From Candidatus Tenderia electrophaga (GTDB taxonomy: Bacteria > Pseudomonadota > Gammaproteobacteria > Tenderiales > Tenderiaceae): 64,000 bases of DNA. Position numbers and translations under genes: made by a program. Positions 13,191 through 56,751 of the stretch are shown here, one piece after another. The stretch lies in NCBI GenBank assembly GCA_001447805.1, contig CP013099.1, forward strand, positions 2,799,181-2,863,180. Direction: 5' to 3'. Every line of letters begins with the position of its first letter. Within the stretch, counting starts at the first letter, position 1. Under the pieces are notes generated by a model. The model was not told the origin of the DNA. It made no database searches and saw nothing but the letters and a program-made list of their open reading frames with translations.

Positions 13191-13357
13191 GCGACGGATC
13201 GTCCCTTGGTCCAGTGAGAGTTATTGTTTCGACAAATCTAGGATTTTAATTGCTGACCGCGACCACAAAGAAATCAAGGCAAAGCGGGCTGGCGTTTGCG
13301 CACGACCGGCCAGGGGGTGACGAAATAATCCCTCTGTCCCCATTCGCCCGAAGAACC

Positions 13358-13771
13358 AATAAAAAAGCCCTGCTGTCTTCCAGCAGAGCCTCTATTGTAT
13401 ATGGCGCGCCCGGCACGATTATTCGCTAAGCTCACCCTGGCGGGCCAGCATCGCTGACGCGCTGCTGTTCTCCTTCGCTACCGCTCAGTCGTCGAACGTC
13501 ACTGAATATATATGTCGCACGTTCGAACCGTGCCGCGGGGGCAATAAAAAGGCCCTGCTGTCTTCCAGCAGAGCCTCTATTGTATATGGCGCGCCCGGCA
13601 CGATTATTCGCTAAGCTCACCCTGGCGGGCCAGCATCGCTGACGCGCTGCTGTTCTCCTTCGCTATCGCTCAGTCGTCGAACGTCACTGAATATATATGT
13701 CGCACGTTCGAACCGTGCCGCGGGGGCAATAAAAAGGCCCTGCTGTCTTCCAGCAGAGCCTCTATTGTATA
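13358..13771. repeat. Tandem 185-bp repeats containing tRNA-Arg 3' ends and terminators
   Basis: Two full 185-bp units start at 13358 and 13543 and a third, partial unit at 13728 runs into the real tRNA-Arg; the copies differ at only a few positions. Each unit begins with the tRNA terminator hairpin and the last 19 bases of tRNA-Arg up to CGGCACGATT. It then has ATTCG, a conserved core including GCTGTTCTCC and CGCTCAGTCGTCGAACG, and finally an inverted copy of the tRNA T-arm (GCACGTTCGAACCGTGC). The ends of each unit are thus imperfect inverted repeats. On the tRNA strand the units lie directly downstream of the tRNA. The preceding 13191-13357 shows nothing recognisable. Confidence 0.9.
13736..13760 (-). 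terminator. Terminator of tRNA-Arg
   Basis: On the minus strand a stem GGCTCTGCTG pairs with CAGCAGGGCC around a GAAGA loop and is followed by TTTTTATT. It begins 12 bases after the CCA end. Copies lie at 13551-13575 and 13366-13390 inside the tandem repeats. Confidence 0.85.
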
Positions 13772-13848
13772 TGGCGCGCCCGGCACGATTCGAACGTGCG
13801 ACCGCCTGGTTCGTAGCCAGGTACTCTATCCAGCTGAGCTACGGGCGC
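13772..13848 (-). tRNA. tRNA-Arg (anticodon ACG)
   Basis: The minus strand folds as a 77-base tRNA: acceptor GCGCCCG pairs with CGGGCGC followed by encoded CCA. The D-arm is AGCTCAGCTGGATAGAGT, the anticodon loop CTACGAA gives anticodon ACG, and the T-loop is TTCGAAT. Position next to tRNA-Ser and csrA matches gammaproteobacterial synteny. Confidence 0.96.
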
Positions 13849-13864
13849 TTATATAAGGGCGGGG

Positions 13865-13893
13865 ATTATCCCGTCTATGGCGCTGACTGTCAA
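13865..13893 (-). promoter_or_regulatory. Sigma70 promoter of tRNA-Arg
   Basis: Reading on the minus strand, TTGACA and GATAAT are separated by 17 bases, followed by a GC-rich stretch typical of stable-RNA discriminators. The -10 element is 17 bases upstream of the tRNA. Confidence 0.75.
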
Positions 13894-13974
13894 GATAACC
13901 GCCTGAAAGGGGTAAACATCCCGACGTTAAATATGGCACGGAGCGGGATCACCGGCCTGCGGCTTCCAGTGTCA

Positions 13975-14017
13975 CGACACTATTCTCTCGCTGGCGCTCG
14001 GTCGTCACAGCGCTTGA
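13975..14017. repeat. Degenerate copy of the tRNA-linked repeat core
   Basis: The stretch with CTATTCTCTCGCTGGCGCTC and then GGTCGTCACAG parallels the core of the tRNA-Arg repeats and of the unit at 40751. It lies between tRNA-Ser and tRNA-Arg, downstream of tRNA-Ser on its strand. No tRNA 3'-end fragment or terminator copy is obvious beside it. Confidence 0.5.
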
Positions 14018-25755: not shown

Positions 25756-27537
25756 TCAAGGCTGTTTTTTCTTGTCGTGCTTGTCATCGTCGTCTGCGGC
25801 AATATCGCCGAAACCGCCCAGGCCGTCTAGTCCATCGTCCTCGTCCAGGCTGGCCAGCTGCGCCAATAATTCATCTTCGTCGATGTCCGTGCCGTCGCCC
25901 GCCTGGGCTTGAGGCGCTGTCGCCGAAGGTGTCTCTTCTTCCATCACCGCCTCGCCAAGCAGTTCGTCGGCGGCGGAGGCTTCAGCCTCGGACACCACGA
26001 TGTCTTCGTCCTTGGACAGATCGATCACCGGGCCGCGGGCCTCCTTCCCGCCAGGTGCATCGGCGGCATCGGCCGGTTTTTCCTTAATCTGTTGCTGCTG
26101 GCGCTGCGCGGCGCTTTCCTCGGCCATGGCATGAAGGACCACATCCTCCAATGACTGGTCATCATTGACGCCCATCTCGCGCAATAGGCCGGCTTCGTTT
26201 TTGGGTTCAGCTTCGGGTTCAGCTTCGGGTTCAGCTTCGGGTTCAGCTTCGGGTTCAGCTTCGGGCTCGGCTTCGGGCTCGGCTTCGGGCTCGGCTTCGG
26301 GCTCGGCTTCGGGCTCGGCTTCGGGCTCGGCTTCGGGCTCGGCTTCGGGCTCGGCTTCGGGCTCGGCTTCGGGTTCAGCTTCGGGTTCAGCTTCGGGCTC
26401 GGCTTCGGGCTCGGCTTCGGGCTCGGCTTCGGGCTCGGCTTCGGGCTCGGCTTCGGGCTCGGCTTCGGGTTCAGCTTCGGGCTCGGCTTCGGGCTCGGCT
26501 TCGGGCTCGGCTTCGGGCTCGGCTTCGGGCTCGGCTTCGGGCTCGGCTTCGGGCTCGGCTTCGGGCTCGGCTTCGGGCTCGGCTTCGGGCTCGGCTTCGG
26601 GCTCGGCTTCGGGCTCGGCTTCGGGTTCAGCTTCGGGTTCAGCTTCGGGTTCAGCTTCGGGTTCAGCTTCGGGTTCAGCTTCGGGCTCGGCTTCGGGCTC
26701 GGCTTCGGGCTCGGCTTCGGGCTCGGCTTCGGGCTCGGCTTCGGGCTCGGCTTCGGGCTCGGCTTCGGGCTCGGCTTCGGGCTCGAGCGTGGCCCCTGAT
26801 TCAGACTCAGCCTGCTCTGAAACAGCCGCTTCTTGGCCCACTGTTTCAACTGCGTCCGTCGCGGCTTCGGACACATTCTCGGCCGCAGGCGGCACGCCGG
26901 CTGCGGCAGGCGCTTCTTTCTCGCCCTTGGCCGCCGAGCCGGTCATGCCCCCCGGCCGGAAGGCTTGGCTGTATTCAGCCATGGCCTGCTCGATCTCGTT
27001 ATAGGCCTGCCCCAGTTCTTTGGACAAACGCTGATTCTCGTTTTTCAGGTTCTCCACTTCGGAGGCGAGCTTGTGACCGTCTTCTTCCAGCCGCTGCAGT
27101 TGTTGTTGCATCGCTTCCGAGAAATCGGCCTCCTCGCCCTCAACCCGGTCACGCATCAGGGCGACTAAGTCCATATAGGACGAAGTATGTTCGTGCAGCA
27201 GCTTGTCCAGAGTCTTCAGGGCGCTGGAGTTGCGCTGCATGTACATTTCGACCAGGCGGTTGTAAAACTTATTTTCCTTGTCCACCCATTCCTGAGCCAA
27301 GTCCCTATTGCTGCCGTCTTCGTCTTCGCCGTCGGCGCCGGTCTTGCTGAGCAGTTGTTCAAACGTCGCTTTGCGCTCAGGGACGTTGTGTTCCAAACGT
27401 CCCTGCAGGGTTGCGGCCGCTTGCTTGTCGCGCTTTTTCAACTTTATGAAATACACCGCCGCGACAACAATCACCACCAGCAAGGCGAGTATCACCTCGC
27501 CCATCAGGATGAGGATAGTCGGATCAATCGTTATCAT
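25756..27537 (-). CDS. Membrane-anchored protein with 49 tandem EAEP repeats
   Basis: The product is about 593 residues. An N-terminal membrane helix (about 5-33, [16 protein letters not shown]) is followed by a mostly helical, coiled-coil-like region (to about 200, [20 protein letters not shown]). A very acidic, Pro-rich stretch of roughly 196 residues made only of Glu-Ala-Glu-Pro repeats follows, then an acidic C-terminal tail with short helices. It recalls the spacer regions of polar-hub or tether proteins such as FimV-like proteins, but I recognise no defined domain. ATG 27537 lies inside the upstream vWA gene (14-base overlap). Repeat copy number probably varies between strains. Confidence 0.8.
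26199..26786. repeat. 49 tandem 12-bp units encoding EAEP
   Basis: The plus strand consists of units CTTCGGGTTCAG (T type) and CTTCGGGCTCGG (C type), the first unit slightly divergent. In order they read 5T-9C-2T-6C-1T-12C-5T-9C. The block 5T-9C (168 bp) occurs at both ends, which suggests a segmental duplication inside the array. All units keep the reading frame. Confidence 0.93.
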
Positions 27538-29410
27538 CGTCGCCCCCTTTTTCCTCGGCGTCCTCTGCATCGTCCTGTTTCGGCTTGGGTGTACGGAACC
27601 ATTTGCGGTAAACAAAGAAGGCAATACCGATCAGCAATGCATTGACACCGATGATCTTGGCCGCCACCAGCATCCAATTCGGCGATTCCTCTTCGGCTGC
27701 ATCCTCAGCGGAGGCCTCATCCTCCGGCGCTGCTTCGGCGTCGGTCGAATCTTCAGCAACAGGCTCTGCGCCGGTATCTTCCGCGGCTTTCTCAACGACC
27801 GGTTTGGCATCGGCCGGCGTCTCATCGGGCTCATCAAAGGCCACGTCCTTAGAGCCGCTGCCGAGTTCGAAACTGCCGAGCTGGTACAGGCCCGGGCGCC
27901 CGTCCTGGCGTTCCGCCTGCACCTCGATTTCAAGCTGATAAATATCACCGGCGCTGACCTTCATATCCAGCCGCCATTCACTCGGTCCGGTGCGCGGAAT
28001 CGTCACCGACTTGGCCGCCCCGCCCTGTTTCGCCACCGTGGCGTCGATGAGCATGGAATCGGGTTTGATGAGTTCTGCGAAGGGCACCAGGCTGAGCGAG
28101 TATTGCGCCGGATCACCCGCCGCTTCTTCCTTGACGGTCACCGCCACGGGCTTGTCCACCACCTTCACGGTGTCGCGCTTGGAACGCTTGAAGGTCATCC
28201 CGTCGACCACTAACTCGTATTCATATTCGCCCGGGGCGAGTTCACCGCCCACCTTGGTACTGAAACGGCCGTCATGGGCGCTGCGATCGATGCCCGTGCC
28301 GTCGTCTTCGACCGGGATTTGTGTCTGCTCACCGCTGCCGGAACGTTCCAAGGTCACGTGGACGAAATCCAGGAATTCCGGGGTGCGAATCACCTCGCCA
28401 TGCTCTTCCAGTTCCACGTAGTAAGGCATGACGTCCTGGCTCATCATCACATTGGGCAGGCGGCTGGCGCGCACCTTGAGATCGGTGACCACCATAACGC
28501 GGTTGTCCGGATCCAGCTCGGCATCCACGCCCCATTCGCCGGCCATGGGTGCGTCGATGGTGATCAGGTCATAGCGTTCTTCGTGGCGCCAGCGCAGGTT
28601 CTCCGTTTCACTGCGATGATCGACTTTCTCGCCGCTGGGCATGTGCAGTACCGCCGTTTGCGCCCCCGGCTTTTTGAATATCAACAGGGTCAGTTCGCGT
28701 ACCGAGTCATCCACCAGCACACGGTTGTCGGTGAGCGGCAGGGTCTCCACCGGGACGGCCTTTTCAAACAGCTTGAGAAAGATGCGTTCCAGTTGCGAGG
28801 CGTCCTTGGCGACCTCGTTCCACCCTTCCGTGGTGGAGGCAAGCTGACGCAAGAAGGCCTTATCCGCTGCGTCGGAGAGCGCGATGGTGTGGATGGTGGC
28901 ACCGGCGGCTTTGAGTCGCGGCAGGGTCTCATTCAAGATGCGACCGCGGGCTTTTTCATTGGCGCCCGGCGTCTTGGAGATGTCCACTACACCGTCGGTG
29001 AGAAAGATAATGCTGCGCTTGGTGTTGGGGTCCGGCGCCTTCCAATCCCAGGTGGATTTCTCCAGCACACCTTCGATGTTGGTGAACAGCCCCTTGGAGT
29101 TGATCTGGCCGGCGGCCTGGTAGGCCTGCTCTTTCCACACGGCATCCACTTCGCCGTGCTTGACCAGCATATTGACGTACTGACCGAAGGTCCAGACACC
29201 GGCCTGTTGGCCCTCGGGGATGAGTTGGGTGATCAGGCGCAGCGCCGGGATGCGCAGATTGTTGGGATCATTGTCTTTCATGCTGCCCGAGATATCGATC
29301 AGCACGCGCACATCGCTGCGTTCGGGCGCCGGGTCGGCGCCCATGTCTGCGGCAACGGAAACGCTAGTCCACAATCCGAGCGCGAACCACAGCATGAGTC
29401 TAAATTTCAT
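27524..29410 (-). CDS. Von Willebrand factor A domain membrane protein
   Basis: The product is about 628 residues. It has a signal peptide (MKFRLMLWFALGLWTSVSVA) and a vWA domain (about 30-215) with the MIDAS motif DISGSMKDND and FLTDGVVD. Beta-rich domains follow (220-520), then a Glu/Ala/Asp-rich spacer and a C-terminal membrane helix (MLVAAKIIGVNALLIGIAFFVY) with a short charged tail. It should be periplasmic and anchored at its C-terminus. ATG 29410 gives the clean signal peptide. The overlap with the EAEP-repeat gene suggests the two proteins act together at the inner membrane. Confidence 0.83.
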   Translation of the reverse strand: MKFRLMLWFALGLWTSVSVAADMGADPAPERSDVRVLIDISGSMKDNDPNNLRIPALRLITQLIPEGQQAGVWTFGQYVNMLVKHGEVDAVWKEQAYQAAGQINSKGLFTNIEGVLEKSTWDWKAPDPNTKRSIIFLTDGVVDISKTPGANEKARGRILNETLPRLKAAGATIHTIALSDAADKAFLRQLASTTEGWNEVAKDASQLERIFLKLFEKAVPVETLPLTDNRVLVDDSVRELTLLIFKKPGAQTAVLHMPSGEKVDHRSETENLRWRHEERYDLITIDAPMAGEWGVDAELDPDNRVMVVTDLKVRASRLPNVMMSQDVMPYYVELEEHGEVIRTPEFLDFVHVTLERSGSGEQTQIPVEDDGTGIDRSAHDGRFSTKVGGELAPGEYEYELVVDGMTFKRSKRDTVKVVDKPVAVTVKEEAAGDPAQYSLSLVPFAELIKPDSMLIDATVAKQGGAAKSVTIPRTGPSEWRLDMKVSAGDIYQLEIEVQAERQDGRPGLYQLGSFELGSGSKDVAFDEPDETPADAKPVVEKAAEDTGAEPVAEDSTDAEAAPEDEASAEDAAEEESPNWMLVAAKIIGVNALLIGIAFFVYRKWFRTPKPKQDDAEDAEEKGGDDDND

Positions 29411-40750: not shown

Positions 40751-40870
40751 TGGCCTCCCCAAGGGGATTATTCGGCCCTTCCAGGGCCTTACCCTACGGG
40801 GCCAGCGTCGCCAAGCTCCGCTGTTCTCCCTCGCTTTCGCTCGGTCGTCGAACCCGAAAGGCTCCTGCAA
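40751..40870. repeat. tRNA-Glu-linked member of the tRNA 3'-end repeat family
   Basis: It starts with a 19-base copy of the tRNA-Glu 3' end (TGGCCTCCCCAAGGGGATT, one mismatch), followed by ATTCG exactly as in the tRNA-Arg units. The shared core includes GGGCCAGCGTCGCC, GCTGTTCTCCCTCGC and CGCTCGGTCGTCGAACC. A terminator precedes it and another follows before the next tRNA-Glu 3' copy at 40932, a period of 181 bases against 185 at tRNA-Arg. Confidence 0.82.
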
Positions 40871-40898
40871 GACCCTTAAGTGACAAATATAAAAAAAA

Positions 40899-40929: not shown

Positions 40930-40977
40930 ATTGGCGTCCCCAAGGGGATTCGAACCCCTGTTACCGCCGTGAAAGGG
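40930..40977. repeat. Left attachment site (attL)
   Basis: These 48 bases are identical to 56815-56862 and equal the 3' part of tRNA-Glu through the anticodon-stem side (GTGAAAGGG). Beyond 40977 the tRNA sequence stops. Confidence 0.93.
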
Positions 40978-41075
40978 AAACAGATCGGACTTTAACGGAC
41001 GTAAACGGAATCATTTATCTTCCTGTTTTATATTGATTTTATTTGGTCTTGGTGTATTATGGTCCGAAGCAGTTT

Positions 41076-41105
41076 GGTAACATCTGTTACCCACGAGTTA
41101 CCCAC
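41076..41105. repeat. Left-end GTTACC repeats, probable integrase arm sites
   Basis: A palindrome GGTAACATCTGTTACC (41076-41091) overlaps the 20-base sequence GTTACCCACGAGTTACCCAC (41086-41105). The latter recurs exactly at 56752-56771 near the other end of the element, next to another GTTAC-containing hairpin. Position beside int and att suggests integrase or excisionase binding. Confidence 0.6.
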
Positions 41106-41120
41106 GGACGAGAATCCCCT

Positions 41121-42389
41121 ATGGCCAGATCCGTCAGAAGCAATCCGCTGGCAACCCGCACCAACCGCCTGAAACTGGTCACCGGGAAGCGCGTCTATGT
41201 CACTATCGGTGAGGGGCTGGCCCTGGGTTATCGCCGCCCGGCCAAAGGCAATGGCACCTGGCAGGCGCGCCTATGGACGGGCGAGCGCTATATAAAGCAC
41301 GTGTTGGGCGAAGCGGACGATTATATGGACGCGGACGGTTCGCACGTGACCACATTCTTCCAAGCGCAGGAAAAGTCCCGGCTGTTTGCCCAAGAAGCAC
41401 GCTCCCCCTCCAGTCCCACGGTGACTCGCCCTACTACTGTGGGCGAAGCTGTCGACCACTACATGTACTGGTTTCGGGAAAACCGTAAGTCGGTCAATGA
41501 GACCGAGGCATGCATCAACGCGCACATCCTCCCCCACTTTCGGGACACACTGGTCTCCGAACTGAGATCAAGCGAAATTAAGGCATGGCTTCATGCCCTG
41601 GCGGCGAAACCCGCCCGGCGCCGTAGCCGCAAGGGTGGCCAGCCGGCCTACCGCGCGGCACCAAAAACGGAAGACGAAAAGCGCTCCCGCAAAGCCAGCG
41701 CCAACCGCATATTCACCATTCTGAAGGCGATTCTGAACAAGGCTTTTGAGGACGGACTTGCTTCCAGCGATACCGAATGGCGCCGCGTCAAACCCTTCGA
41801 AAAGGCCGATGAGCCACTCACACGTTTCCTGACCACCGCCGAGGCCGAACGTCTGATCAATGCCTCGAGTCCGAATTTTCGCCTGTTGGTCAAGGCCTCC
41901 CTTTTTACGGGCGCCCGCTACGGCGAACTGGCTCGCCTCAACGTTGAACACGTCAACCTGGATACCGGACAGGTCTACATCACCCCGTCGAAATCAGGCA
42001 AAGGCCGCTATATCCCCCTCTCCCACGAAGGCCTGGATTTCTTCACCACCGTAATCGCCGGCAAACTGCGGCGCGACTTTGTCTTCACCCGCGAAGACGG
42101 CGAGGCATGGGGAAAAAATCATCACACCCGGCATATGAAGGCCGCCTGTGCAGCCGCCAAGATTGAACCGGCCATCAGCTTTCACGAGCTGCGCCATACC
42201 TATGCATCCCTGCTGGCCCAGGCCGGGGCCGACTTGCTGACCATATCCAGGCTGCTGGGACATGCGGACACCCGGGTCACATCGAGACACTATGCCCACT
42301 TGTGCGACAACACGCTGAAGAACGCCGTAACCACGCTGCTGCCCAGCTTTGGTCACCAAGCGGATAAAACCATAAAGGCCATTCGCTAG
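41121..42389 (+). CDS. int: Tyrosine recombinase (phage-type integrase)
   Basis: The 422-residue integrase has the catalytic residues Arg in GARYGELARL, His-x-x-Arg in HELRHTYASLLAQAG, His in LLGHADTRVTSRHYAHL and the nucleophilic Tyr in the same segment. An N-terminal arm-binding domain with GTWQARLW is followed by a SAM-like core-binding domain (about 110-220). ATG 41121 is preferred; 26 more codons are open upstream but cover the arm-site repeats. It catalyses recombination between the tRNA-Glu att sites. Confidence 0.94.
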   Translation: MARSVRSNPLATRTNRLKLVTGKRVYVTIGEGLALGYRRPAKGNGTWQARLWTGERYIKHVLGEADDYMDADGSHVTTFFQAQEKSRLFAQEARSPSSPTVTRPTTVGEAVDHYMYWFRENRKSVNETEACINAHILPHFRDTLVSELRSSEIKAWLHALAAKPARRRSRKGGQPAYRAAPKTEDEKRSRKASANRIFTILKAILNKAFEDGLASSDTEWRRVKPFEKADEPLTRFLTTAEAERLINASSPNFRLLVKASLFTGARYGELARLNVEHVNLDTGQVYITPSKSGKGRYIPLSHEGLDFFTTVIAGKLRRDFVFTREDGEAWGKNHHTRHMKAACAAAKIEPAISFHELRHTYASLLAQAGADLLTISRLLGHADTRVTSRHYAHLCDNTLKNAVTTLLPSFGHQADKTIKAIR

Positions 42390-42452
42390 GGCCCCTTAGG
42401 GATCAGCCCAAAACAGACTTGAATATAACTAAATATAACCGATAATATAACC

Positions 42453-42713
42453 ATGACCTACACCCTCTTGATACACAAGGACGCGGACAAGGTGTTACGC
42501 AAGATGGACCGTCCGACCCGATACCGGGTCGCCGAGAAGATCCAGGCCTTGGGCGACAACCCGGACGATCCGGCCTTGGATATCAAGCGACTGACGGGAA
42601 TGGACCGTTACCGCATGAGGGTGGGCGACTGGCGCATCATCTTCGACCGGCAAGATGCCGTGAGGGTGATTGCAATTGAGAAGATCAAGCCCCGTGGGAA
42701 CGTGTACAAATGA
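42453..42713 (+). CDS. RelE/ParE-superfamily toxin
   Basis: The 86-residue protein matches RelE-type toxins: VLRKMDRPTRYRVAEKIQAL, then LTGMDRYRMRVGDWRIIFD and a basic C-terminus. Members usually cleave mRNA on the ribosome. Its stop overlaps the antitoxin start (ATGA). Three TATAAC repeats lie in the 35 bases before the start and may be the operator for autoregulation. Confidence 0.9.
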   Translation: MTYTLLIHKDADKVLRKMDRPTRYRVAEKIQALGDNPDDPALDIKRLTGMDRYRMRVGDWRIIFDRQDAVRVIAIEKIKPRGNVYK

Positions 42714-43045
42714 GCTCAACAGCAAAGAAGATCCAGGTCATCCAATCCCTGGACGGCAAACCAGAATACGTGCTGGTGCCGTATAGCGTTTATCGCGCCC
42801 TCAAAACCAAGATCGATGACGCCTTGGCCAAACAGCCTGCAGATGAGGACTTCCACCCCTTCAGCCTGGACGAATATGTCGACAACCCCGTGGCCCTGGC
42901 CCGGATCAAGGCGCGACTCTCCCAGCAAGAACTGGCAGAGCGAATGGGCATCAGTCAAGCGTATATCAGCAAAATTGAGAACCAAGAAAAGGTAACCGCC
43001 AAAGTCATGGGCAAGGTAACCGCGGCCTTGAAACGAAAATCGTAA
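42710..43045 (+). CDS. XRE-family antitoxin
   Basis: The 111-residue protein has an N-terminal toxin-binding half and a C-terminal helix-turn-helix (about 58-108) with LSQQELAERMGISQAYISKIEN. With the toxin gene first it has the HigBA-like order. It should neutralise the RelE-like toxin and repress the operon, stabilising the element. Confidence 0.9.
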   Translation: MSSTAKKIQVIQSLDGKPEYVLVPYSVYRALKTKIDDALAKQPADEDFHPFSLDEYVDNPVALARIKARLSQQELAERMGISQAYISKIENQEKVTAKVMGKVTAALKRKS

Positions 43046-43163
43046 CCCACTCGAATGCCGGCGGGTAGATCTACAGTACTAACCCGGCATGATAAGACGG
43101 GCAGCGACGTGCAGTCACACGCCGCCACCCTAACCACAACCCACCTACACAGGAGGTGCAGTC

Positions 43164-43433
43164 ATGGCTAACACCGATTCTACAGCACTACCCCCCAGCC
43201 CAACGCAATTCGATGGCGACTACCGAATCAGGGAAATCGCCGATCAAACCGGAGATGCTTCCAGCGATATCAGAGCCGTCGTTGAGATGATCAACGATGT
43301 CATCGAGGCACAAAATACTAACTGGCAGTCGCACGTGTTGATGCTAACCCGGCTGCTGGGGTCAATCGCCAACAACATCGACGAAGCCTCGAACGTTGCC
43401 TACTCAATTCTGCATAGCAACGAGAGTCACTAA
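43164..43433 (+). CDS. Hypothetical protein of the integrative element
   Basis: An 89-residue acidic, helical protein (ASSDIRAVVEMINDVIEAQN, LLGSIANNIDEASNVAYSIL). I recognise no family. An excellent ACAGGAGGTG Shine-Dalgarno supports that it is expressed. Confidence 0.65.
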   Translation: MANTDSTALPPSPTQFDGDYRIREIADQTGDASSDIRAVVEMINDVIEAQNTNWQSHVLMLTRLLGSIANNIDEASNVAYSILHSNESH

Positions 43434-43453
43434 ATAGGGCAACAAGAGTACCG

Positions 43454-43513
43454 CCAAGCCTAGGGTAGCTCCCGAACGGTCGGAAGCCTTCGCCGGCCTG
43501 GCTTGGTGTTTTT
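43454..43513 (+). terminator. Branched hairpin with T-run
   Basis: CCAAGCC and GGCTTGG close a structure that contains the inner stem GGTCGG / CCGGCC, followed by TGTTTTT. It lies right after the 89-residue gene and works as a terminator or a structured leader for the next gene. Confidence 0.6.
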
Positions 43514-43542
43514 CTATGAAGGCGCGCATAGAAGGAGCGTGT

Positions 43543-44154
43543 ATGCTTAATATAAGTATACTGCAACAGCGACATGAAGCCCGCCTGTCTAAACTACGCG
43601 ATGTTATCGATAAGGTTCTACCCGTCGACGTAAAAAATCGGGGAGATGCTGTCGATGAACTCGCGAGAATTGTAAGCGAATTGGAATATTATCTCCTTGT
43701 AGACAAGAGCCCATCCGAAGATAAAGGAACGACGCACAAACTCCTTCAGAAATCTGCCAAAGACATGGCCGTGCTGGCCAATCACTTAGAAAAGATTGAT
43801 GAATTGCTTGAGCAGTCTGCGCCGGCAACACAGATCACTATCGCTCAAGAGTTAGAAAAGAGGGGCATTTCCCCTGACATTCTCTCCAATGCAATGACCA
43901 TCCTGCACGAAATCGCCGTCAATCACTCAAAACCACCACCCCCCCTCCAACAAGGAAACACCAAAACTGCTATTGGTCTTTATACTGCAACGGTGTATCG
44001 CCATCTCAATACAGTAGGAATATGCAAAATGCGTGCTGCATCACGCATTGTGGCAAGCCTCCTCATTTCAACAATACCCCAGTATCACGAACACGACCCC
44101 GACAAACTAGCCGACAGCTGCTATCAACTTATCCGTGAGAGCGTTTCCCGGTAG
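43543..44154 (+). CDS. Hypothetical helical protein of the integrative element
   Basis: A 203-residue protein with LSKLRDVIDKVLPVD and LELLVDKSP-like helical segments, then a C-terminal region ending in DSCYQLIRESVSR. No known domain. GAAGGAG precedes ATG 43543, which I prefer over an in-frame ATG nine codons earlier. The base composition is more AT-rich than the flanking chromosome. Confidence 0.6.
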   Translation: MLNISILQQRHEARLSKLRDVIDKVLPVDVKNRGDAVDELARIVSELEYYLLVDKSPSEDKGTTHKLLQKSAKDMAVLANHLEKIDELLEQSAPATQITIAQELEKRGISPDILSNAMTILHEIAVNHSKPPPPLQQGNTKTAIGLYTATVYRHLNTVGICKMRAASRIVASLLISTIPQYHEHDPDKLADSCYQLIRESVSR

Positions 44155-44318
44155 GGAAAGCATCGCCTCTATAAAATAATTTCTACCAATAACCATTGGC
44201 CCTATTCTTGTCCCATTGAGTACGAGGGGGTGCGGATAACTCCCCTCAACCCTTTTAAAATCATATCGGCATTTAATTTCTTTATGTCCTTACGGGACTA
44301 GCAAGAAGGGGAAGCACA

Positions 44319-44594
44319 ATGGAAAACGCAACCAGGTCATTCTCTATTTGTCGACTGCCTTCCGTCCTCGCGGCAAGAGGGAATAGGTCGCGCTCGTCTC
44401 ATTATGACGATATCAAGAAAGGCCTATGGACTCGACCAGTGAAATGTGCGGCAAGGGCCTGTGGCTGGCCGCAGCACGAAGTAGAAGCACTAAATGCGGC
44501 ACGCATTGCCGGCAAGACAGATGACGAAATAATGGAGCTTGTCGCCAAGTTGGAGGATGAACGCAAGACAGCTCTGGATGAGGCCCTCAAATGA
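44319..44594 (+). CDS. AlpA-like phage regulator
   Basis: The 91-residue protein has RLPSVLAARGNRSRSSHYDDIKKGLWTRPVK, then CGWPQHEVEALNAARIAGK, the signature of AlpA-family MerR-like regulators. These control excision genes in satellites such as P4-like elements and cryptic prophages. AAGGGGAAG precedes the start. The 164 bases upstream are AT-rich and probably hold its promoter. Confidence 0.85.
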   Translation: MENATRSFSICRLPSVLAARGNRSRSSHYDDIKKGLWTRPVKCAARACGWPQHEVEALNAARIAGKTDDEIMELVAKLEDERKTALDEALK

Positions 44595-44896
44595 CAGCGG
44601 CCTCAGGCTTAAAAGCTTGGACACCCGACGGCACCGCCATTCCCCCTCCCCCTTGTGTTTGTTTGCGCACGGTGCGCGAGTGTTGCAGGGCAGCGTGCAA
44701 CATGCAACGACGGGCATATTCGATATGCCAGTCTTGGGGGTCCTCCCTGGGGGGTCCCTTGAGGGTAATTCGAACCTCAATATCTCCCGACTGTGAGGTG
44801 TTGAAACATAGGCAACAGGTTGAATTCAATGACTGCGGCACGGTGACTGGGTTAGCGAATGACCCAACGGGAGTAAGTAGCAGGCACGAAAACTGA
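44591..44896 (+). CDS. Hypothetical Cys-rich protein after AlpA
   Basis: A 101-residue frame begins with ATGA overlap to the AlpA-like gene. It has six or more Cys (PPPPCVCLRTVRECCRAACNMQRR). I have no family for it and composition is unusual, so coding is plausible but not proven. Confidence 0.42.
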   Translation: MTAASGLKAWTPDGTAIPPPPCVCLRTVRECCRAACNMQRRAYSICQSWGSSLGGPLRVIRTSISPDCEVLKHRQQVEFNDCGTVTGLANDPTGVSSRHEN

Positions 44897-44913
44897 AACA
44901 TAGACCCCGGAGT

Positions 44914-45180
44914 AACTACACACCCGTCCAAAAACTACAGGGGCGACTACAGGCAAAACTACACACTAAGTGATTGAAAATGAAAATAACTACAGGAACT
45001 ACAGGCAAACGCGCCCGCGCACGCGGGAGAAAATATTTTTTACACGAGCGTTATAAGTAATTTGTCTCGTGCGTACGACCCCCTCTAGTGTGTAGTTCCG
45101 TAGTTTATAAGCAATATCAAAAGGTTAGTGTGTAGTTTGACTGTAGTATTGGGTGTAGTTCCTTGAAAAGTATGTAGTTC
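44914..45180. other. Candidate replication origin with symmetric iterons
   Basis: The left half carries six copies of an ACTACA-type unit (AACTACACAC or AACTACAGG, starting at 44914, 44933, 44945, 44957, 44988 and 44997). The right half has six in opposite orientation (GTGTAGTT, GTAGTTT and close variants, at about 45088, 45099, 45127, 45141, 45152 and 45172). Between them are a palindrome CCCGCG-CA-CGCGGG (45014-45027) and an AT-rich stretch (45028-45064). The primase-helicase gene follows. Iterons around an AT-rich zone beside a primase are typical of plasmid and satellite origins. It fills most of the 600 bases between the AlpA region and the ParB-like gene. Confidence 0.68.
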
Positions 45181-45204
45181 GGCAGATTTTAAAAGGGCTG
45201 AGTA

Positions 45205-45426
45205 ATGACAAACGCACAAGCGCGCAAGATAGAACACAAACCGGTAGCCGACCTGGCGCCCTATGCCAGCAACGGCCGCTCCTACAGCAACGTCCAGGTG
45301 GCACACTTGGACCGCAGTATTCAGGAGTTCGGGTTTACCGACCCGGTATTGACCGACGCAGACAGCACCAGCATCACCGACCACGGCTGTGTCATGGCGG
45401 CGCAATGGCTGGGTTCTAACGGATGA
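45205..45426 (+). CDS. Truncated ParB N-terminal-like domain protein
   Basis: The 73-residue protein matches only the first part of the ParB/Srx-like domain: VADLAPYASNGRSYSNVQ, then HLDRSIQEFGFTDPVLTD and a degenerate GCVMAAQWLG where family members have GHGRVMAA. In phages this domain often starts a DNA methylase or nuclease, and the rest is missing. Its stop overlaps the primase start by four bases, so it may act as a leader that couples primase translation. Confidence 0.65.
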   Translation: MTNAQARKIEHKPVADLAPYASNGRSYSNVQVAHLDRSIQEFGFTDPVLTDADSTSITDHGCVMAAQWLGSNG

Positions 45427-47972
45427 CCCACGAGAATTACGACGACGTGCTGGCACAGCTACACGCCTACGGCTTAGAGGTGGAAGCGCCCCTGGAAATC
45501 GGCGGCACCAAGCCGGCGCGCTGTTACGAGGCCGGCGGCGACCGGGAAAAGCGCGGCTGGTACTGGCTGCACGAGCTGCGCCTGGATGACGGACTATATC
45601 TGGTGGGCTCTTTCGGTGTCTTTCGCGGCGACGACCCGGGCACGCAAAAGATCGCGCTCAACAAACGCTGCCAGGACTGCGGCCAGATCATGGCCATGCG
45701 CGAGCGCAAGTGCCCCAGCTGCGGCGGCAAGAACATCAAAAAGCGCGAGCTGACCCAGGAACAACAGGCCGCCATCAAACAACGCCAGGCCGAGAACAAA
45801 CGCAAGCTCGAGGCCGCGCGCAAGGTCGAGGCCGACCGCGCCGCCCAATGGGCGCATGCCGTGTGGACCCATTGCCGCGAGGCGGCACCCCGGGAACATG
45901 ACTACCTGGCGCGCAAGCTGCTGAACCACACCGGCGGCGCGCGCATTTTCGACGACCATGACGGCGTCATGCTGCAAGGCGCCGAGCGGCGCGACTATGA
46001 ATACCTGGCCCTGTTCCATGGCGCCCTGGTGGTGCCGATGTGCGACATCGCCACCGGCAACGTGCGCGGCCTGCAGTTCATATTGAGCCGCGAGCACCAC
46101 AAAGAGCGCATCGCCAAGACCGGCCGCGACAAAGAATATTGGCCCAAGGGCATGCAAAAGGACGGCATCGCTCACTTGATCGGCGGCAGCCCCCAGGGCG
46201 TGGCCCTGGTGACCGAAGGATTCGCCACCGCCATCACGCTGCATGAGGCAAGCAACACCCCCGTCGCCATCGCCTTCGACGCCAACAGCGTGCCCAAGGT
46301 GGGCGCCGCCCTGTTCAAACAACACCGCAAGCGGATCCACCTTATTTTTTGCGCCGACGATGATTGGCTGCAAAAGTGCAGCGCGTGCAAGGCCTACACC
46401 CCGGTGGCCGAGATCAAGTGCCGCCACTGCGGCGCGGCGCACGGCAAGCACAATGCCGGGGTGGAGCGCGCCAGCGAGGCGGCGCTTGCCACCGGCGGCA
46501 GCTACATCGTGCCGCAGTTCGCCGACCCGCGGCCGGACGATAAGAAGGGCCCGACCGACTACAACGACCTGCACGCCATCGAGGGGCTGAACACCGTGCG
46601 GGCCCAGATCGAGGCGGCCCTACCCGCCGGCAGGACCGCGCCAGCGGGCGCGCCCATCGGGGGGGAGGGGGAACGGCTAAAGCCCCGTATCTCTATCGAC
46701 GAGGCGGTCGCCCGCTTTGTTGGCACGTACGGCTTCGGCGGGAAAGTTCTGTACGATAAACAAGAGCGGTGTTTGTCTACCAAGGACGATGTTTGCAATC
46801 TGTTGCCGCGCCACGGCTGGGACCAATTGAAGGAGCACCCGGCCTGGGCCGTAGTGCGCCACACAGAGATCGGCTTCGACCCGTCAGAAACCGACCCAGA
46901 GATCATCTGCAACTTATGGGGCGGCTGGCCCACAACACCCGAGAAAGGGCGCTGCGAATACCTGCTCGACCTGCTGGCCCACCTATGCAGCGGCGAGGAA
47001 AACAGCGCCGAGCTATACGACTGGACATTGAAGTGGCTGGCCTATCCCATCCAGCACCCCGGCGCCAAGATGGAGTCGGCGGTGGTGGTGCATGGCCCGC
47101 AAGGCACCGGCAAGAGCCGCTTTTTTGAGGCCTACGCCAAGATATACGGCCCCTATGGCCGGGTGCTGGACCAGTCCGCCATCGAGGACAACTTCAACGC
47201 CGACTGGGCCAGTAAAAAACTATTTATTCTCGCCGACGAAGTGTTGGCCCGCGGTGATATGTATCACCTGAAGAACCGGCTTAAGGGCTTCATCACCGGC
47301 AGCACCATCCGCGTCAACACCAAGATGGTCACCGCGCACATCGAGCGCAACTGCATGAACATCGTTTTCCTGTCCAACGAAAAGATGCCGGTGGTGCTGG
47401 AAAACGACGACCGGCGCCACTGCGTGATCTGGACCCCACCCAAGTTGCCCGATGACATCTACCACGCCGTCAACGATGAGATCGACAACGGCGGCATCGA
47501 GGCCCTGCATGACTATCTGTTGCGCCTGGACCTGGGCGGCTTCAAACCTTGGAGCAAGCCCCCACTGACCAAGGCCAAGCACGAATTAATCGACCTGGGC
47601 ATCGGCAGCGACGAGCGCTTTATTCGCGAATGGCTGGCGGGTGAAACACCACACCCGGTCGGCCCCTGCGCCAGCATGGATCTGTACGCGGCCTATCAAC
47701 GCTGGGCACGCGCCAACGGGGAGAGCAGGCCTCGCAAGTCTAACCAGTTCTTGGGCTATGTAGCCAAGCTTGAGGGCTGGAAGATCCAGCCCAGCAAGAT
47801 ATGGGACAACACCCACTACACCGGCAATTACATAAGCAAGCGCATGGTGATCCCCAGCGAGACCGCCCTGGCTGCGGCGGGTATCCCAGCCCGGCCGCCG
47901 GAAAAGACAGTGGGCCAATGGTTGACTGACGGCTATGCCGAGTTTCGGCTGGCACTCGATGATGGAAGGTGA
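45423..47972 (+). CDS. Toprim primase / SF3 helicase
   Basis: The 849-residue protein has a zinc ribbon (about 82-100, CQDCG...CPSCG) and a Toprim domain (about 255-380) with VTEGFATAITLHEA and FCADDDW. Right after the Toprim acidic motif a second zinc ribbon (CSACK...CRHCG, about 320-340) is inserted. The C-terminal half (about 440-760) is a superfamily 3 / phage D5-like helicase with Walker A GPQGTGKSRFF near 558 and FILADEVLARGD. It should prime and unwind DNA at the adjacent candidate origin, as P4 alpha does. Confidence 0.9.
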   Translation: MTHENYDDVLAQLHAYGLEVEAPLEIGGTKPARCYEAGGDREKRGWYWLHELRLDDGLYLVGSFGVFRGDDPGTQKIALNKRCQDCGQIMAMRERKCPSCGGKNIKKRELTQEQQAAIKQRQAENKRKLEAARKVEADRAAQWAHAVWTHCREAAPREHDYLARKLLNHTGGARIFDDHDGVMLQGAERRDYEYLALFHGALVVPMCDIATGNVRGLQFILSREHHKERIAKTGRDKEYWPKGMQKDGIAHLIGGSPQGVALVTEGFATAITLHEASNTPVAIAFDANSVPKVGAALFKQHRKRIHLIFCADDDWLQKCSACKAYTPVAEIKCRHCGAAHGKHNAGVERASEAALATGGSYIVPQFADPRPDDKKGPTDYNDLHAIEGLNTVRAQIEAALPAGRTAPAGAPIGGEGERLKPRISIDEAVARFVGTYGFGGKVLYDKQERCLSTKDDVCNLLPRHGWDQLKEHPAWAVVRHTEIGFDPSETDPEIICNLWGGWPTTPEKGRCEYLLDLLAHLCSGEENSAELYDWTLKWLAYPIQHPGAKMESAVVVHGPQGTGKSRFFEAYAKIYGPYGRVLDQSAIEDNFNADWASKKLFILADEVLARGDMYHLKNRLKGFITGSTIRVNTKMVTAHIERNCMNIVFLSNEKMPVVLENDDRRHCVIWTPPKLPDDIYHAVNDEIDNGGIEALHDYLLRLDLGGFKPWSKPPLTKAKHELIDLGIGSDERFIREWLAGETPHPVGPCASMDLYAAYQRWARANGESRPRKSNQFLGYVAKLEGWKIQPSKIWDNTHYTGNYISKRMVIPSETALAAAGIPARPPEKTVGQWLTDGYAEFRLALDDGR

Positions 47973-48034
47973 ACCGCTTTTCTCAGATGCGCTGATTTCA
48001 GCGCCTTCATTAATGCAAACAAAGAGGTAATGCC

Positions 48035-48640
48035 ATGAGTGATATCAAAGCAGCACAGAAAGAAATGAACGACGCCTACGCCGACTATGCTGAACTGAAA
48101 AAGCGTCTCAAATCTTTTGGGTCACGTCGAGAGGAAGTAAAGGAGTCAATCCCGCAGCTCACCGCCAAGATAGAAGAGGCGGAAAAACATAAACAAAAGG
48201 CCATGGCGGACTACGCAGCCGGGGTGGTTGATCAGAACGCCGTTACAGAAGCGCGGGCCATGGTTGAGTCAGCGTGCCGGGAAGAAGAGCAAGCCAACGG
48301 AATGCTGGAGGCAATTCAAGGCGAGCATCGAAAAGCGGTCGACGCCCTATATCCGGCCCGTGATCGGTGCCGAGATGCGCGCCGGCGCTATTGTCAAGCA
48401 TGCGCCGAGCCCATCGAAGACCAACTAGCTGGTGATACGAAGATCAGGCGGCAGCTGCTGGATATCTTCGCTGCTGCCGCATTGGAAAACGATGTAGAGC
48501 TTGGATTTGGGCAAGGCCAGGTAGATTGGGAATTGCTGTTGACCAATACCTTCCCAGAGCCCACTAATGATGAAATCGACAAAGCGATCGAGCGCTTTGA
48601 GCGTAACCATATGCAGGATTCCAAGGAAGTGGCTGCATGA
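48035..48640 (+). CDS. Hypothetical coiled-coil protein
   Basis: A 201-residue protein whose first 130 residues are strongly helical and charged (ADYAELKKRLKSFGSRREEV, EEAEKHKQKAMADYAAGV), predicting a coiled coil. The C-terminal part is acidic with no known domain. AAAGAGGTAATG gives the start. Its stop overlaps the next gene by four bases. Confidence 0.68.
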   Translation: MSDIKAAQKEMNDAYADYAELKKRLKSFGSRREEVKESIPQLTAKIEEAEKHKQKAMADYAAGVVDQNAVTEARAMVESACREEEQANGMLEAIQGEHRKAVDALYPARDRCRDARRRYCQACAEPIEDQLAGDTKIRRQLLDIFAAAALENDVELGFGQGQVDWELLLTNTFPEPTNDEIDKAIERFERNHMQDSKEVAA

Positions 48641-49290
48641 GGGTAGAAGACCGCCCGCCCTATCGTTGGCTCCGGCGGGTCGGTGCAATCGCCGACCTGC
48701 CGTCCTGGCCACGTGATCGGCGCACGCTGGCCTACCACGAGGCCGGGCATGCCGTTCTGTCTGAGCTGTGTGGCTTGGCTGTAGACGTGGCCAAGATCAA
48801 CACTGAGGGAAGCAAAGGGGAAATGCGATTCGTAAAGCCTCGGCCCTGCGCAGACGTCCCTGAATTTCCTCAAGCGATGATCGAGAAGGTGGCCGTAGAG
48901 ATGGCGGCCATGTATGTGGGTGGCGTTATGTGCGAGTTGCTGCTCCATGGCAGGGATTTAAAGCCGGGCACCTACCTGCTGTTGAATGATCGGGACTGGA
49001 CCAATGCCAAGCGCATACTGTGGAAGGCGTTCTCAAGCCACACCCCGCTGTTCTACTGCCAGCGCCTGGCACGAGCAGTGCTCTCCGAAAACTGGACATG
49101 GGTGCGAGCCGTGGCGGCTGAGATTGAGGCTGTAGGCATTGCAGACGGCGCCACCGTCAGGCGCCTTCGAGGGGAAAGCGCGCAGGGTATCCCCGCCGAT
49201 GGGGCTGAGCAGTCATTACGAATCAGAGCCCCTAGGGCGGCTGGGGCTGGGGTTGGGGCTGAAGGCCTAGGGCAATGTCAGTCTCTATGA
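48637..49290 (+). CDS. Small M41 (FtsH-type) peptidase-like protein
   Basis: The 217-residue protein contains LAYHEAGHAVLSELCG near residue 32. This is the HEAGH metal-binding motif of FtsH-family zinc peptidases, here without the AAA ATPase domain. The middle (MIEKVAVEMAAMYVGGVMCELLL) resembles the M41 helix that follows the motif. A third metal ligand (Asp in FtsH) may be in LNDRDWTNAKRIL. The last 40 residues are low complexity. Substrate unknown; host or phage proteins are candidates. Confidence 0.72.
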   Translation: MRVEDRPPYRWLRRVGAIADLPSWPRDRRTLAYHEAGHAVLSELCGLAVDVAKINTEGSKGEMRFVKPRPCADVPEFPQAMIEKVAVEMAAMYVGGVMCELLLHGRDLKPGTYLLLNDRDWTNAKRILWKAFSSHTPLFYCQRLARAVLSENWTWVRAVAAEIEAVGIADGATVRRLRGESAQGIPADGAEQSLRIRAPRAAGAGVGAEGLGQCQSL

Positions 49291-49358
49291 GAGGCGCTAT
49301 CGCTCAACAAGGTCGAGCGCCTGAGCGCCGTTTGATAGACCAACCATAGGAGCAACGC

Positions 49359-51476
49359 ATGCTAGATAATCAACTACGTGTTCAAATCGTCGGCGATGAC
49401 CGCGACTTAAGGGCCACGGTGCAGCGCTCCGGGCGCAACCTCAAACAATTGGGCAGTACCGGCAACCGGGCCAACCGCGAACTGGCCGACGGCGCTGAGA
49501 AGGTGCAGCGTTCATATCGGCTGGTGGCCGGGGCTATCGGCCTGGTGACGGCGGGCATCGGCGGGTTTTCGCTGGCGCAGCTGGTGGAGAATACCGTGGC
49601 CGTCACCCGCGAGACCGAGGCCTGGGCCCGCGCCGTTGGCGTCTCAACCAAGACCCTGCAAGCCTGGAACTACGCCGGGGAACAGGCCGCCCTGCAACAG
49701 GGCAAGATCGGCGATATCTTCAAGGACACCGCCGAGAAGATCGCCGACGCCTACACCACGGGCGGTGGCGAGGCCGCAGACGCCCTGGCCCAGCTCAACC
49801 TACGCGCCGCCGATCTGGTGGGGCTGTCGCCGGATCAGCAGCTGCTGGCCATCGGCAACGCCCTGAGTGACCTGGGCACCCAGGGAGAAAAGGTCAAAGT
49901 GATGGAGGACCTGGCCAGTGATGCCAGCCTATTGTTGCCCCTGCTGGATGATAACGCCAAGCATCTGCGCGCATTCATCACCGAGGCTGAAGCCAGTGGT
50001 GTGGCCCTCTCGGCCCTGGATAGTGCCGCCATCTCGGAACTGGGCAAAGAATTTGCCCAGCTCAGGGCTCAAGGTACCGGCTTCGGCAATGAATTGACCG
50101 TGGCCCTGGCCCCAGCCATCCACGGCGTTAATCAGGCGCTGACTGACATGATTGCCGGGTGGGATGGCATGGGCAACGCAGCCACCAAGTCGGTGGAAAT
50201 CGCCGTGACGGGGCTGGGATTCGTGCTGGACGTCGGGCGCGAGTTGCAGACCCTGTTGAAGCTCTCCCAGGTCGGCTGGTTGCAGTTGGGCAAGGCGGGC
50301 GTGGATGCCTTGATAGGCACCGGCGAGGCGGGTATCGAATTGATCAACACTGTGCTCCAGCCGATCCGCGACTTGCTGGGGAACATTTGGGAAATTGAAG
50401 GCGAACTGGTCACCCTTGCCGGCAGGGTGACCGGCATTGATTGGATGCAGCAGTATGGTCAATTTCTACAAGATTTTTCGGCGTCGATGAAAACCTCACG
50501 CCTGGAAATGGAAGACTTCACTGCGCTGCAGGGTCGCCTGCAGCAATCCTTGGCTGGGGCCAATACCGAGTTGCAGGCCCTTATCAACAGCGACGCCCCA
50601 AGCACCGAGCTTCAGGACTGGCTGGAGAGCAACCGCGCGGAGCTGGAAAAGATCGCCGCCGAGGCCGTCGAAGCCAATGCCGCCATGACCGGCCTTGGCC
50701 AGCGTAGCGGGTCCGCCAACGACGCGTTCTATAAACGCCTATCGGCGGCGGAAAGCACCATCCAGGCGGCACGCACCGAGACTGAGAAATTCACTGACGA
50801 GATGCTGCGCCTGAACGCTCAATTCATCGCCGGGGATATCGGCGCCCAGACCTACGAGGTGGCCATCAAGCAGGCGTTCGACGGCATTGAGGCAGAGGGC
50901 ACCGCCAGCTTGCAGGCCTTGATTGACGCCGTGCACGGCTGGGGCCGAGAATTTACTGACACGTTGGCCAAGTCGGTGACCACTGGAAAATTCAACTTTA
51001 AGGACCTGGCCGATTCAATTATTCAGGACCTGTTGCGCATCCAGATACAGCAAAGCATTACCGAGCCACTGCTGGCCGCCGGCGGCGATATCTTCGGCGG
51101 CCTGTTCAGCGCGGGCACCAAACACACCGGCGGTATTGTCGGCAGCGAGAACAGTGGCAGCCGCATGGTGTCGCCGGCGCTGTTCGCCGGGGCGCCGCGT
51201 TATCACACCGGCGGCATTGCCGGGGATGAGGTGCCGATCATCGCCAAGCGCGGCGAGGGTGTGTTCACGCAGGGGCAGATGCGCGCCATGGGCGGCGGCA
51301 ACCAAAACGTGCGCGTGGTGATGGAGAATCGCGGCCAGCCGCAGCAGGTGAGCGACACTGATGTGAGTTTCGACGCTGAAGGCATGGTGGTGCGCATAGT
51401 CACCGACGACATGCGCCGCGGCGGGCCGATTAGCGGCACCATGAGCCGCACGTTTAACCTGCGGCGGGGTGCGTGA
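49359..51476 (+). CDS. Phage tail tape measure protein
   Basis: The 705-residue protein has the lambda-H-like tape measure layout. The N-terminus (LRVQIVGDDRDLRATVQRSG) leads into hydrophobic segments near residues 55-75 and 300-340, then long helices. The C-terminal domain contains LADSIIQDLLRIQIQQSITEPLL and a Gly-rich GIAGDEVPIIAKRGEGVFTQGQ. Length would set a tail of roughly 100 nm if it follows the usual relation of about 0.15 nm per residue. No other tail gene lies in the element. RBS ATAGGAGCAACGC is good. Confidence 0.88.
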   Translation: MLDNQLRVQIVGDDRDLRATVQRSGRNLKQLGSTGNRANRELADGAEKVQRSYRLVAGAIGLVTAGIGGFSLAQLVENTVAVTRETEAWARAVGVSTKTLQAWNYAGEQAALQQGKIGDIFKDTAEKIADAYTTGGGEAADALAQLNLRAADLVGLSPDQQLLAIGNALSDLGTQGEKVKVMEDLASDASLLLPLLDDNAKHLRAFITEAEASGVALSALDSAAISELGKEFAQLRAQGTGFGNELTVALAPAIHGVNQALTDMIAGWDGMGNAATKSVEIAVTGLGFVLDVGRELQTLLKLSQVGWLQLGKAGVDALIGTGEAGIELINTVLQPIRDLLGNIWEIEGELVTLAGRVTGIDWMQQYGQFLQDFSASMKTSRLEMEDFTALQGRLQQSLAGANTELQALINSDAPSTELQDWLESNRAELEKIAAEAVEANAAMTGLGQRSGSANDAFYKRLSAAESTIQAARTETEKFTDEMLRLNAQFIAGDIGAQTYEVAIKQAFDGIEAEGTASLQALIDAVHGWGREFTDTLAKSVTTGKFNFKDLADSIIQDLLRIQIQQSITEPLLAAGGDIFGGLFSAGTKHTGGIVGSENSGSRMVSPALFAGAPRYHTGGIAGDEVPIIAKRGEGVFTQGQMRAMGGGNQNVRVVMENRGQPQQVSDTDVSFDAEGMVVRIVTDDMRRGGPISGTMSRTFNLRRGA

Positions 51477-51543
51477 TCTGGAACGGCCGCAAGTAGCAGC
51501 CACATGGTTTTAAGGCTTCCACCTTGACTGCAGTTGACTGTAA

Positions 51544-55306: not shown

Positions 55307-55468
55307 ATTTTGTCTTTTCTGGTCGCAAATTATGCCTCAATTAGGCAAAATCGAGGTTTTCCGTACAAGAGCTATTTACCACCGAGCTCCCGCTTCTGTT
55401 CGATTCGATTCATCTGCGCTTTTGCTAACCTGACAATATCTGTCAGATCAAATGCTGGCTACGCTATA

Positions 55469-55789
55469 CTATTTGTGGTGCCACCAAATCCTGAGCTTGG
55501 TCACCAGATACCACGTCAGGCCCAAGAACATGAGCAGTGGCGGCCATGGACTAGCATGCTGCTCAATGCCCGTCGGCTGAGAGAAGAACCATATTGCACC
55601 GACAAGCAAGAGGAGCACGGCGCCAATGGTGTGGAGCTTTAGGCGCTTACCGGTTTCTTGGATAGTGGTAAGCGGTGTGCCAGCGGCCTGGGTTTCACGA
55701 GCGGAAGCGATGCCGATGCCGCAATTAGGACAGCTTGTTGCGGCGTCTGAGACTTTTTTCCCACATTCCGGGCAGTCGATGAGCGCCAT
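55469..55789 (-). CDS. Zinc-ribbon membrane protein
   Basis: The 106-residue protein has a zinc ribbon at its start (CPECGKKVSDAATSCPNCG) and two membrane segments (TIGAVLLLLVGAIWFF and PLLMFLGLTWYLVTKL). Such proteins are common, small and uncharacterised. It follows the YbjQ-like gene by two bases, so the pair is one operon. Location just upstream of the Gabija-like pair on the same strand may mean shared transcription. Confidence 0.75.
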   Translation of the reverse strand: MALIDCPECGKKVSDAATSCPNCGIGIASARETQAAGTPLTTIQETGKRLKLHTIGAVLLLLVGAIWFFSQPTGIEQHASPWPPLLMFLGLTWYLVTKLRIWWHHK

Positions 55790-55791
55790 AG

Positions 55792-56268: not shown

Positions 56269-56750
56269 AACCCCCTCCCCTTTCTTAACCCAAGCCTATC
56301 AGCAACCTTGGCGATGGAGCAAGAAAGGCCGGAAATACAAATTATTGCGCCCTACCAAGTCACGCACTAACAATGAAGTTTGATCATGGCCATCAGATAT
56401 TCACGAAAAGAAGGTGGCAATGCGGATAACCAGTTAGCACATTTAAGGTCTCCGCGAGCACTGGATTTTATTTCCCTCGGATAGGGCACTGAATCCAGGC
56501 TTCATCGCATCCATGGCATTACGCCCACGCGGAGGGCTTACCCTTCTGCTGGGGAGACACAGGCGATACTGGAACTAAATACTTGCTTCGGGCACATGCC
56601 GGGCCCGCTTTGAGGATATCTTCCTGCTCGACTCAAGCCCCTGGCGGGCTGAACAGGCAGATTGTGAGTGCATCAGGTGCTGGAGAGCGCGACATCCCCA
56701 TGGACCTGAGCACAGGCCACCAAGAGAAAATGCCGCGGAAGGGGCACGCC
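56269..56750. other. Right-end non-coding part of the element
   Basis: About 480 bases between the YbjQ-like gene and the right-end repeats. I see no gene with a good start signal, no tRNA and no strong hairpin; sequence required in cis for excision may lie here. Confidence 0.4.
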
Positions 56751-56751
56751 A

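Follow-up and report, generated by a model that had tools for sequence, protein, structure and literature searches.

A two-unit array of tRNA-linked repeats behind the tRNA-Arg(ACG) gene of Candidatus Tenderia electrophaga

The tandem array that follows the tRNA-Arg(ACG) gene in the window studied here (the whole stretch of 64,000 nucleotides that was analysed, taken from a 3.76-Mb gammaproteobacterial genome in two contigs) is, on sequence grounds, a set of tRNA-linked repeats (TLR; Rfam RtT, RF00391). We consider it probable that this two-unit TLR/RtT locus gives rise to structured RNA cassettes by read-through and processing, in a recombining array whose core has spread, or been homogenised, within the genome with ends matched to each host tRNA. 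The proposal is built on family membership, host-matched ends, a conserved RNA fold, the similarity of cores within a genome and the existence of empty sites, all of them shown in this analysis; beyond these, we infer that the organism transcribes and processes the units, that their copy number stems from recombination and that they may have a cellular role.

Architecture of the array

Tandem Repeats Finder and a repeat finder gave a period of 185 bp with 99% matches and 2.3 copies. Two full units (13357-13541 and 13542-13726) lie 3' of tRNA-Arg(ACG) and are identical at 183 of 185 positions, the differences being at 13366 (A/G) and 13481 (C/T). A previous sequence-only reading had counted three units of exactly this period: the period holds, but the stretch from 13728 taken as the third is no full unit, since positions 13727-13790 (64 bp, 98%) are the tRNA's own 3' end and terminator. 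Read in the direction of the tRNA, each unit comprises, in this order, an inverted T-arm, CG-TTCGA in direct orientation, a core of hairpins, CGAAT, a tail equal to nt 58-76 of the tRNA (CCA included) and a copy of the terminator (Table 1). The tail is AATCGTGCCGGGCGCGCCA on the minus strand, identical to the tRNA at 19 of 19 positions and directly preceded by CGAAT, which had been noticed on the other strand as ATTCG. The T-arm copy is GGCACGGTTCGAACGTGCGAC, of which 14 nt are an exact inverted match to nt 46-59 of the tRNA. The proximal unit begins 37 nt past the CCA of tRNA-Arg on the same strand, one terminator copy separates the two units and terminators flank each of them. Open reading frames in the window units, where a small one such as tpr was considered, are short and overlapping, with no sign of conservation.

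Table 1. Coordinates of the array and of related features in the window
Feature	Position	Strand	Evidence
Putative sigma-70-like promoter upstream of tRNA-Arg, TTGACA-17-GATAAT	13865..13893	-	Consensus scan, 11/12 matches
Host gene tRNA-Arg(ACG), nt 58-76 = 13772-13790	13772..13848	-	ARAGORN, Rfam tRNA
Terminator hairpin T1 (tRNA terminator)	13733..13763	-	Identical to T2, homologous to T3 (scan)
Proximal TLR/RtT unit, with inverted T-arm, core of hairpins and tRNA tail	13587..13734	-	RF00391 1-130/130, 15 bits, below gathering cut-off
Inverted host T-arm copy, 5' end of proximal unit	13699..13719	-	14 nt exact against tRNA nt 46-59
Conserved core, proximal unit	13602..13683	-	Held-out model R3, 49.1 bits, E 5.8e-10
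Copy of tRNA-Arg nt 58-76, proximal unit, exact 19 nt	13587..13605	-	Sequence comparison
Terminator copy T2	13548..13578	-	Repeat and sequence comparison
Distal TLR/RtT unit	13402..13549	-	RF00391 end to end, 14.6 bits
Inverted host T-arm copy, distal unit	13514..13534	-	Sequence comparison
Conserved core, distal unit	13417..13498	-	Held-out model R3, 48.5 bits, E 7.9e-10
Copy of tRNA-Arg nt 58-76, distal unit, exact 19 nt	13402..13420	-	Sequence comparison
Terminator copy T3 (final)	13363..13393	-	Terminator scan, 13-bp stem and T tract
Probable relic core behind tRNA-Ser(GCT)	13932..14011	-	R2, 5.6 bits, E 0.06 in 281 bases; weak
TLR unit of tRNA-Glu	40751..40892	-	RF00391 end to end, 22 bits; tail 18/19
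Core of tRNA-Glu unit	40766..40854	-	R3, 63.9 bits, E 1.8e-13
tRNA-Glu 3' part (attachment-site copy) beside TLR unit	40932..40977	-	Comparison with 56818 onward

Family membership

RF00391 aligns end to end (1-130/130) to all three units of the window in a permissive Rfam scan, at 14.6, 15 and 22 bits, but its gathering cut-off of 45 bits is reached by no unit in the window or in the genome (best 34.3). At that cut-off Rfam reports only tRNAs and int-alpA in the window, RtT surfacing in the permissive scan alone. Other permissive matches, among them SSRC10, McaS, asX2 and STnc250, were rejected as terminator look-alikes or chance, and BLAST against phage records gave nothing but tRNA matches among the matches listed. 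A held-out covariance search was made with a model, R3, trained on 37 cores from other genomes, with both this genome and E. coli excluded. It gave the three cores of the window 63.9, 49.1 and 48.5 bits (E 1.8e-13 to 7.9e-10) and placed the units behind tRNA-Ser and tRNA-Gln of the same genome at 64.0 and 58.8 bits. The E-values from this held-out model, 8e-10 to 2e-13, exclude a chance match for the window cores. In E. coli the model recognised four tyrT/V units at 49-56 bits and the 5S-linked rrB at 41.7 bits. The core that the sequence-only reading saw in common with the tRNA-Glu unit at 40751 is homologous.

That reading knew of no named element with such a layout, but there is one. The same rule, a terminal stretch of 18-19 bp that exactly repeats the 3' end of the tRNA or rRNA lying upstream, characterises the TLRs of E. 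coli (Egan and Landy 1978; Rudd 1999; reviewed in PMC8144298). They were first described in 1978, and K-12 has 22 copies of them, distributed over ten loci (PMC8144298). Each E. coli locus has one to five tandem copies, and most TLRs have no known function (PMC8144298). At tyrT-tyrV the layout is that of the window, with GGGGAAGGGUGAGAACC (the complement of the tRNA-Tyr tail), AAGGUUCGA, hairpins and CGAAUAAUCC-tail-CCA. E. coli TLRs and the window units share a position immediately behind a tRNA or 5S gene, a tail copy, tandem copies, the core recognised by R3 and a terminator on each side. Unlike the published TLRs, for which conservation is stated within Enterobacteriales, those of the array belong to a host that is no enterobacterium and a tRNA that is Arg(ACG). 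Rfam's RtT corresponds to rttR of E. coli tyrT/tyrV, to which the window units align at full length but below the cut-off. The RrA, RrB and RrF sRNAs of the E. coli rRNA operons are also comparable, being TLRs between two terminators, with a read-through transcript and a tail copy that serves 3' processing (PMC8144298); the rrB core is recognised by R3, and they differ from the window in having a 5S rather than a tRNA host. CsrA and Hfq bind the rrn-linked members, and this binding is predicted to be absent in the tRNA-linked ones (PMC8144298). A role of rtT in amino-acid starvation was dropped from consideration, as it is reported retracted (PMC8144298). The fixed terminal repeats and constant target duplication of MITE-like transposable elements were not found, both ends varying with the host tRNA.

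Host-matched tails

A tRNA lies upstream on the same strand in 73 of 79 RF00391 matches, with an exact 19-nt tail in 39 and a tail of at least 18/19 in 53, and when hosts were swapped the tail identity was 12.2 of 19, as against 16.9 for the true host. An independent survey with a DNA pattern on the core gave at least 93 matches in at least 80 loci, and here the exact 19-nt host tail was present in 62 of the 72 units with an upstream tRNA, over 16 tRNA species, among the matches listed. Of the 63 matches that a search of relatives with the core alone gave beyond this genome, 43 immediately follow a tRNA on the same strand, 11 have a tRNA close by in some other arrangement and 9 have none in the fetched stretch, although some of these 9 carry a tRNA-like tail. 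Cores scattered at random away from tRNA genes are not what is observed. The tail is not always kept, since some cores elsewhere lie upstream of tRNAs or convergent with them, with no matching tail. At one locus (L225, G029:C1:458000-461500) three TLR cores stand upstream of tRNA-Ser(CGA) with no tRNA tail, and another core behind the tRNA.

The first proposal from the sequence is borne out in that the unit is a discrete cassette bound to the 3' ends of tRNA genes: the tail starts in the T-loop at nt 58, matches its host and stands beside a terminator, and the arrangement recurs behind Ser-TGA, Gln-CTG and Glu of this genome. The accompanying suggestion that the element inserts into a working tRNA and repairs it with the carried tail found no support here. 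The functional tRNA retains a tail of its own, and its terminator precedes the units.

An inverted host copy at the 5' end

The inverted T-arm seen at the outset in the window is real and has counterparts in the wider family, where the 5' end of a unit holds an inverted copy taken from the T-arm/acceptor part (nt 44-74) of the tRNA that hosts it. The longest exact inverted stretch averaged 10.2 nt against the own host and 7.0 nt against tRNAs of other isotypes (n=91 units, p ~6e-16, a value that is optimistic, as are the other p-values given here, because the units are only partly independent); in the window it is 14 nt. This copy can pair with the tail, a pairing that is weak in many tRNA-Ser units. 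In the few hosts without GG before TTCGA the unit follows its host (Arg CG in the window, Pro AG in genome G053). The (A/G)CG-TTCGA of the unit resembles a direct copy of the T-arm's 5' half. The left flank of E. coli rrB resembles 5S rather than tRNA. Altogether, the inverted host copy, the agreement with the host before TTCGA and the 5S-like flank of rrB suggest that both flanks of the core are host-derived. No description of a host-specific inverted 5' copy was found in the TLR text consulted.

RNA structure

The four helices of the core show 134 two-sided changes vs 49 in shuffles and a covariation score of 0.380 vs 0.141; none of 500 shuffles scored as high, and slid versions reached 0.04-0.10. 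The helix between tail and inverted copy has 80 two-sided cells vs 31. Folding was stronger on the tRNA strand than on the complement in 37 of 43 units (p 1.7e-5), which together with the covariation points to selection acting on an RNA of the same orientation as the tRNA. A DNA search of relatives with the unit found little besides tRNA tails, indicating that the core keeps its structure better than its sequence.

Other units of the genome

Full-length RF00391 matches also occur behind tRNA-Ser(TGA), at 34.3 bits the best of the genome, and behind tRNA-Gln(CTG). A model with the window included in its training, R2, matched exactly five places genome-wide, all of them the Arg, Glu, Ser(TGA) and Gln units, so that the genome has TLRs at four loci, with two copies at tRNA-Arg. 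An RF00391 match at 7805 of contig C1 was discarded, having no tRNA near and not being recovered by R2. The degenerate core reported earlier behind tRNA-Ser(GCT) is a plausible, weakly supported relic. In the tRNA-Gln(CTG) unit (L092:60-480) the tail copy is interrupted after 12 nt by an insert of ~60 bp, beyond which the tRNA's own downstream flank resumes. The tRNA-Glu gene (56817-56892) is parted from its own TLR unit by an integrated element of ~16 kb (40932-56892), which carries a phage-type integrase (41118-42386; PF00589, E 1e-29) and an int-alpA RNA (43453-43522, Rfam).

Two further repeats were met in this genome. Outside the window, behind tRNA-Arg(CCG), there is a tandem array of 4.3 copies of 114 bp (L081:293-779; G000:C1:3382592-3383078), each with the last ~17 nt of that tRNA and a core different from TLR. 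Within the window, a 622-aa ORF on the minus strand (25756-27624) contains 48 copies of a 12-bp repeat (26210-26785) encoding Glu-Pro-Glu-Ala.

Range and turnover

Among 370 gammaproteobacterial genomes, RF00391 was found in 76 at E 0.01, in 25 of them over the cut-off, and R3 cores were found in 63 of 140 genomes at E 0.001, a survey that differs from the former in sample and threshold. R3 also reaches other classes of the phylum, mostly one family, and several of these cores have exact Ser tails. The E. coli tyr repeat occupies from 1 to 9 places per genome. One genome contig (G119:C1) holds at least six dispersed core copies of equal score that lack the first five model positions and are possibly 5S-linked.

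Cores behind different tRNAs of the same genome have a mean identity of 0.78 (15 pairs), those behind the same tRNA in different genomes 0.65 (136 pairs; p 9e-6) and those behind different tRNAs in different genomes also 0.65. In genome G025 the Gln and Val units are 92% alike in the core, with different ends that each match their host. Empty tRNA-Arg(ACG) sites, with a single terminator and no unit, occur in two genomes of the same genus (G001, G002) and two of the same family (G008, G009), and a unit is present in G010, G024 and G029. The pattern of core similarity and the empty sites support turnover together with spread or conversion within genomes, and TLRs seem to have spread between the tRNA genes of a genome.

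Origin and proposed processing

In E. coli, RrA, RrB and RrF are read-through sRNAs between two terminators, whose mapped 3' end lies 3 nt beyond the tail copy and for which a role of RNase E is suggested (PMC8144298), and RtT RNAs have been detected by Northern blot in A. pleuropneumoniae (PMC4986893). On the proposed reading each unit of the array, set between copies of the tRNA terminator, would be a structured RNA cassette. RNA polymerase coming from the tRNA-Arg promoter and reading through T1 would produce the unit RNA, as homology and layout suggest, and RNase E with the tRNA 3'-end enzymes would recognise the tRNA-like 3' end and free a small RNA, as mapped for RrB. The tail would pair with the inverted copy and close the molecule. 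Recombination between the tail-plus-terminator repeats may alter the length of the array and leave the tRNA unharmed, and over evolutionary time the core would spread or be homogenised among the tRNA genes of a genome, its ends taking the sequence of the new host.

A small mobile or amplifying element had been envisaged from the sequence; of this, an apparent spread between tRNA genes within genomes stands. A stronger version, which we treat as tentative, holds that an actively mobile core inserts between nt 57 and 58 (T-loop) of a duplicated tRNA 3' end and gains both ends from the recipient as it arrives, by a route such as template switching with an RNA or ssDNA intermediate. It would account for the excess of core similarity within genomes over that between orthologous sites, for the Gln and Val pair of G025, for the inverted host copy at the 5' end, for the empty sites in the same genus and for the 5S-like, not tRNA-like, left flank of rrB; yet no carrier gene, such as one for a transposase, is encoded in the unit, insertion was not seen directly and gene conversion between loci could yield the same similarity. 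Core similarity and empty sites, as sequence patterns, fit transposition and conversion alike and do not distinguish them. It is rather unlikely, in our estimate, that TLRs as a whole are a class of mobile structured RNAs whose core occupies the T-loop position of a duplicated host RNA 3' end and whose inverted and direct ends come from each new host. If true, this would explain why TLRs are found behind many tRNAs and 5S rRNA, in Gammaproteobacteria and beyond.

Less credit can be given to passive debris, in which the tandem duplication of a tRNA 3' end and terminator took the spacer with it and the RNA serves no function. The partial copy within the array and the apparently unrelated 114-bp array with tRNA tails behind tRNA-Arg(CCG) are in keeping with it, but the strong compensatory covariation of the core and its conservation across families require selection on the RNA or a copying mechanism, which makes this explanation improbable. 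An origin as attachment-site scars, left by elements that integrate at the 3' ends of tRNA genes, comes to mind because the window has such a site at tRNA-Glu, whose 3' end is duplicated. That att duplication (~46 nt), however, exceeds the tail in length and lacks a core, TLR units have exactly nt 58-76 and a family-specific core, and no integrase adjoins the tRNA-Arg array, all of which leaves such an origin very improbable indeed. An assembly error, suggested by the near identity of the two units, is scarcely credible, as two positions distinguish them, the assembly consists of two contigs and unrelated genomes show the same layout at dozens of loci.

Significance

The element itself belongs to the known TLR family; what most deserves further study is the host-specific inverted 5' copy and the spread within genomes. 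The range of TLRs now extends far beyond Enterobacteriales, with many members placed below the cut-off by the standard Rfam model. Host-derived sequence at both ends, round a covarying core, is a rule that any account of their origin must explain, and it makes the question of TLR mobility testable by comparison of strains.
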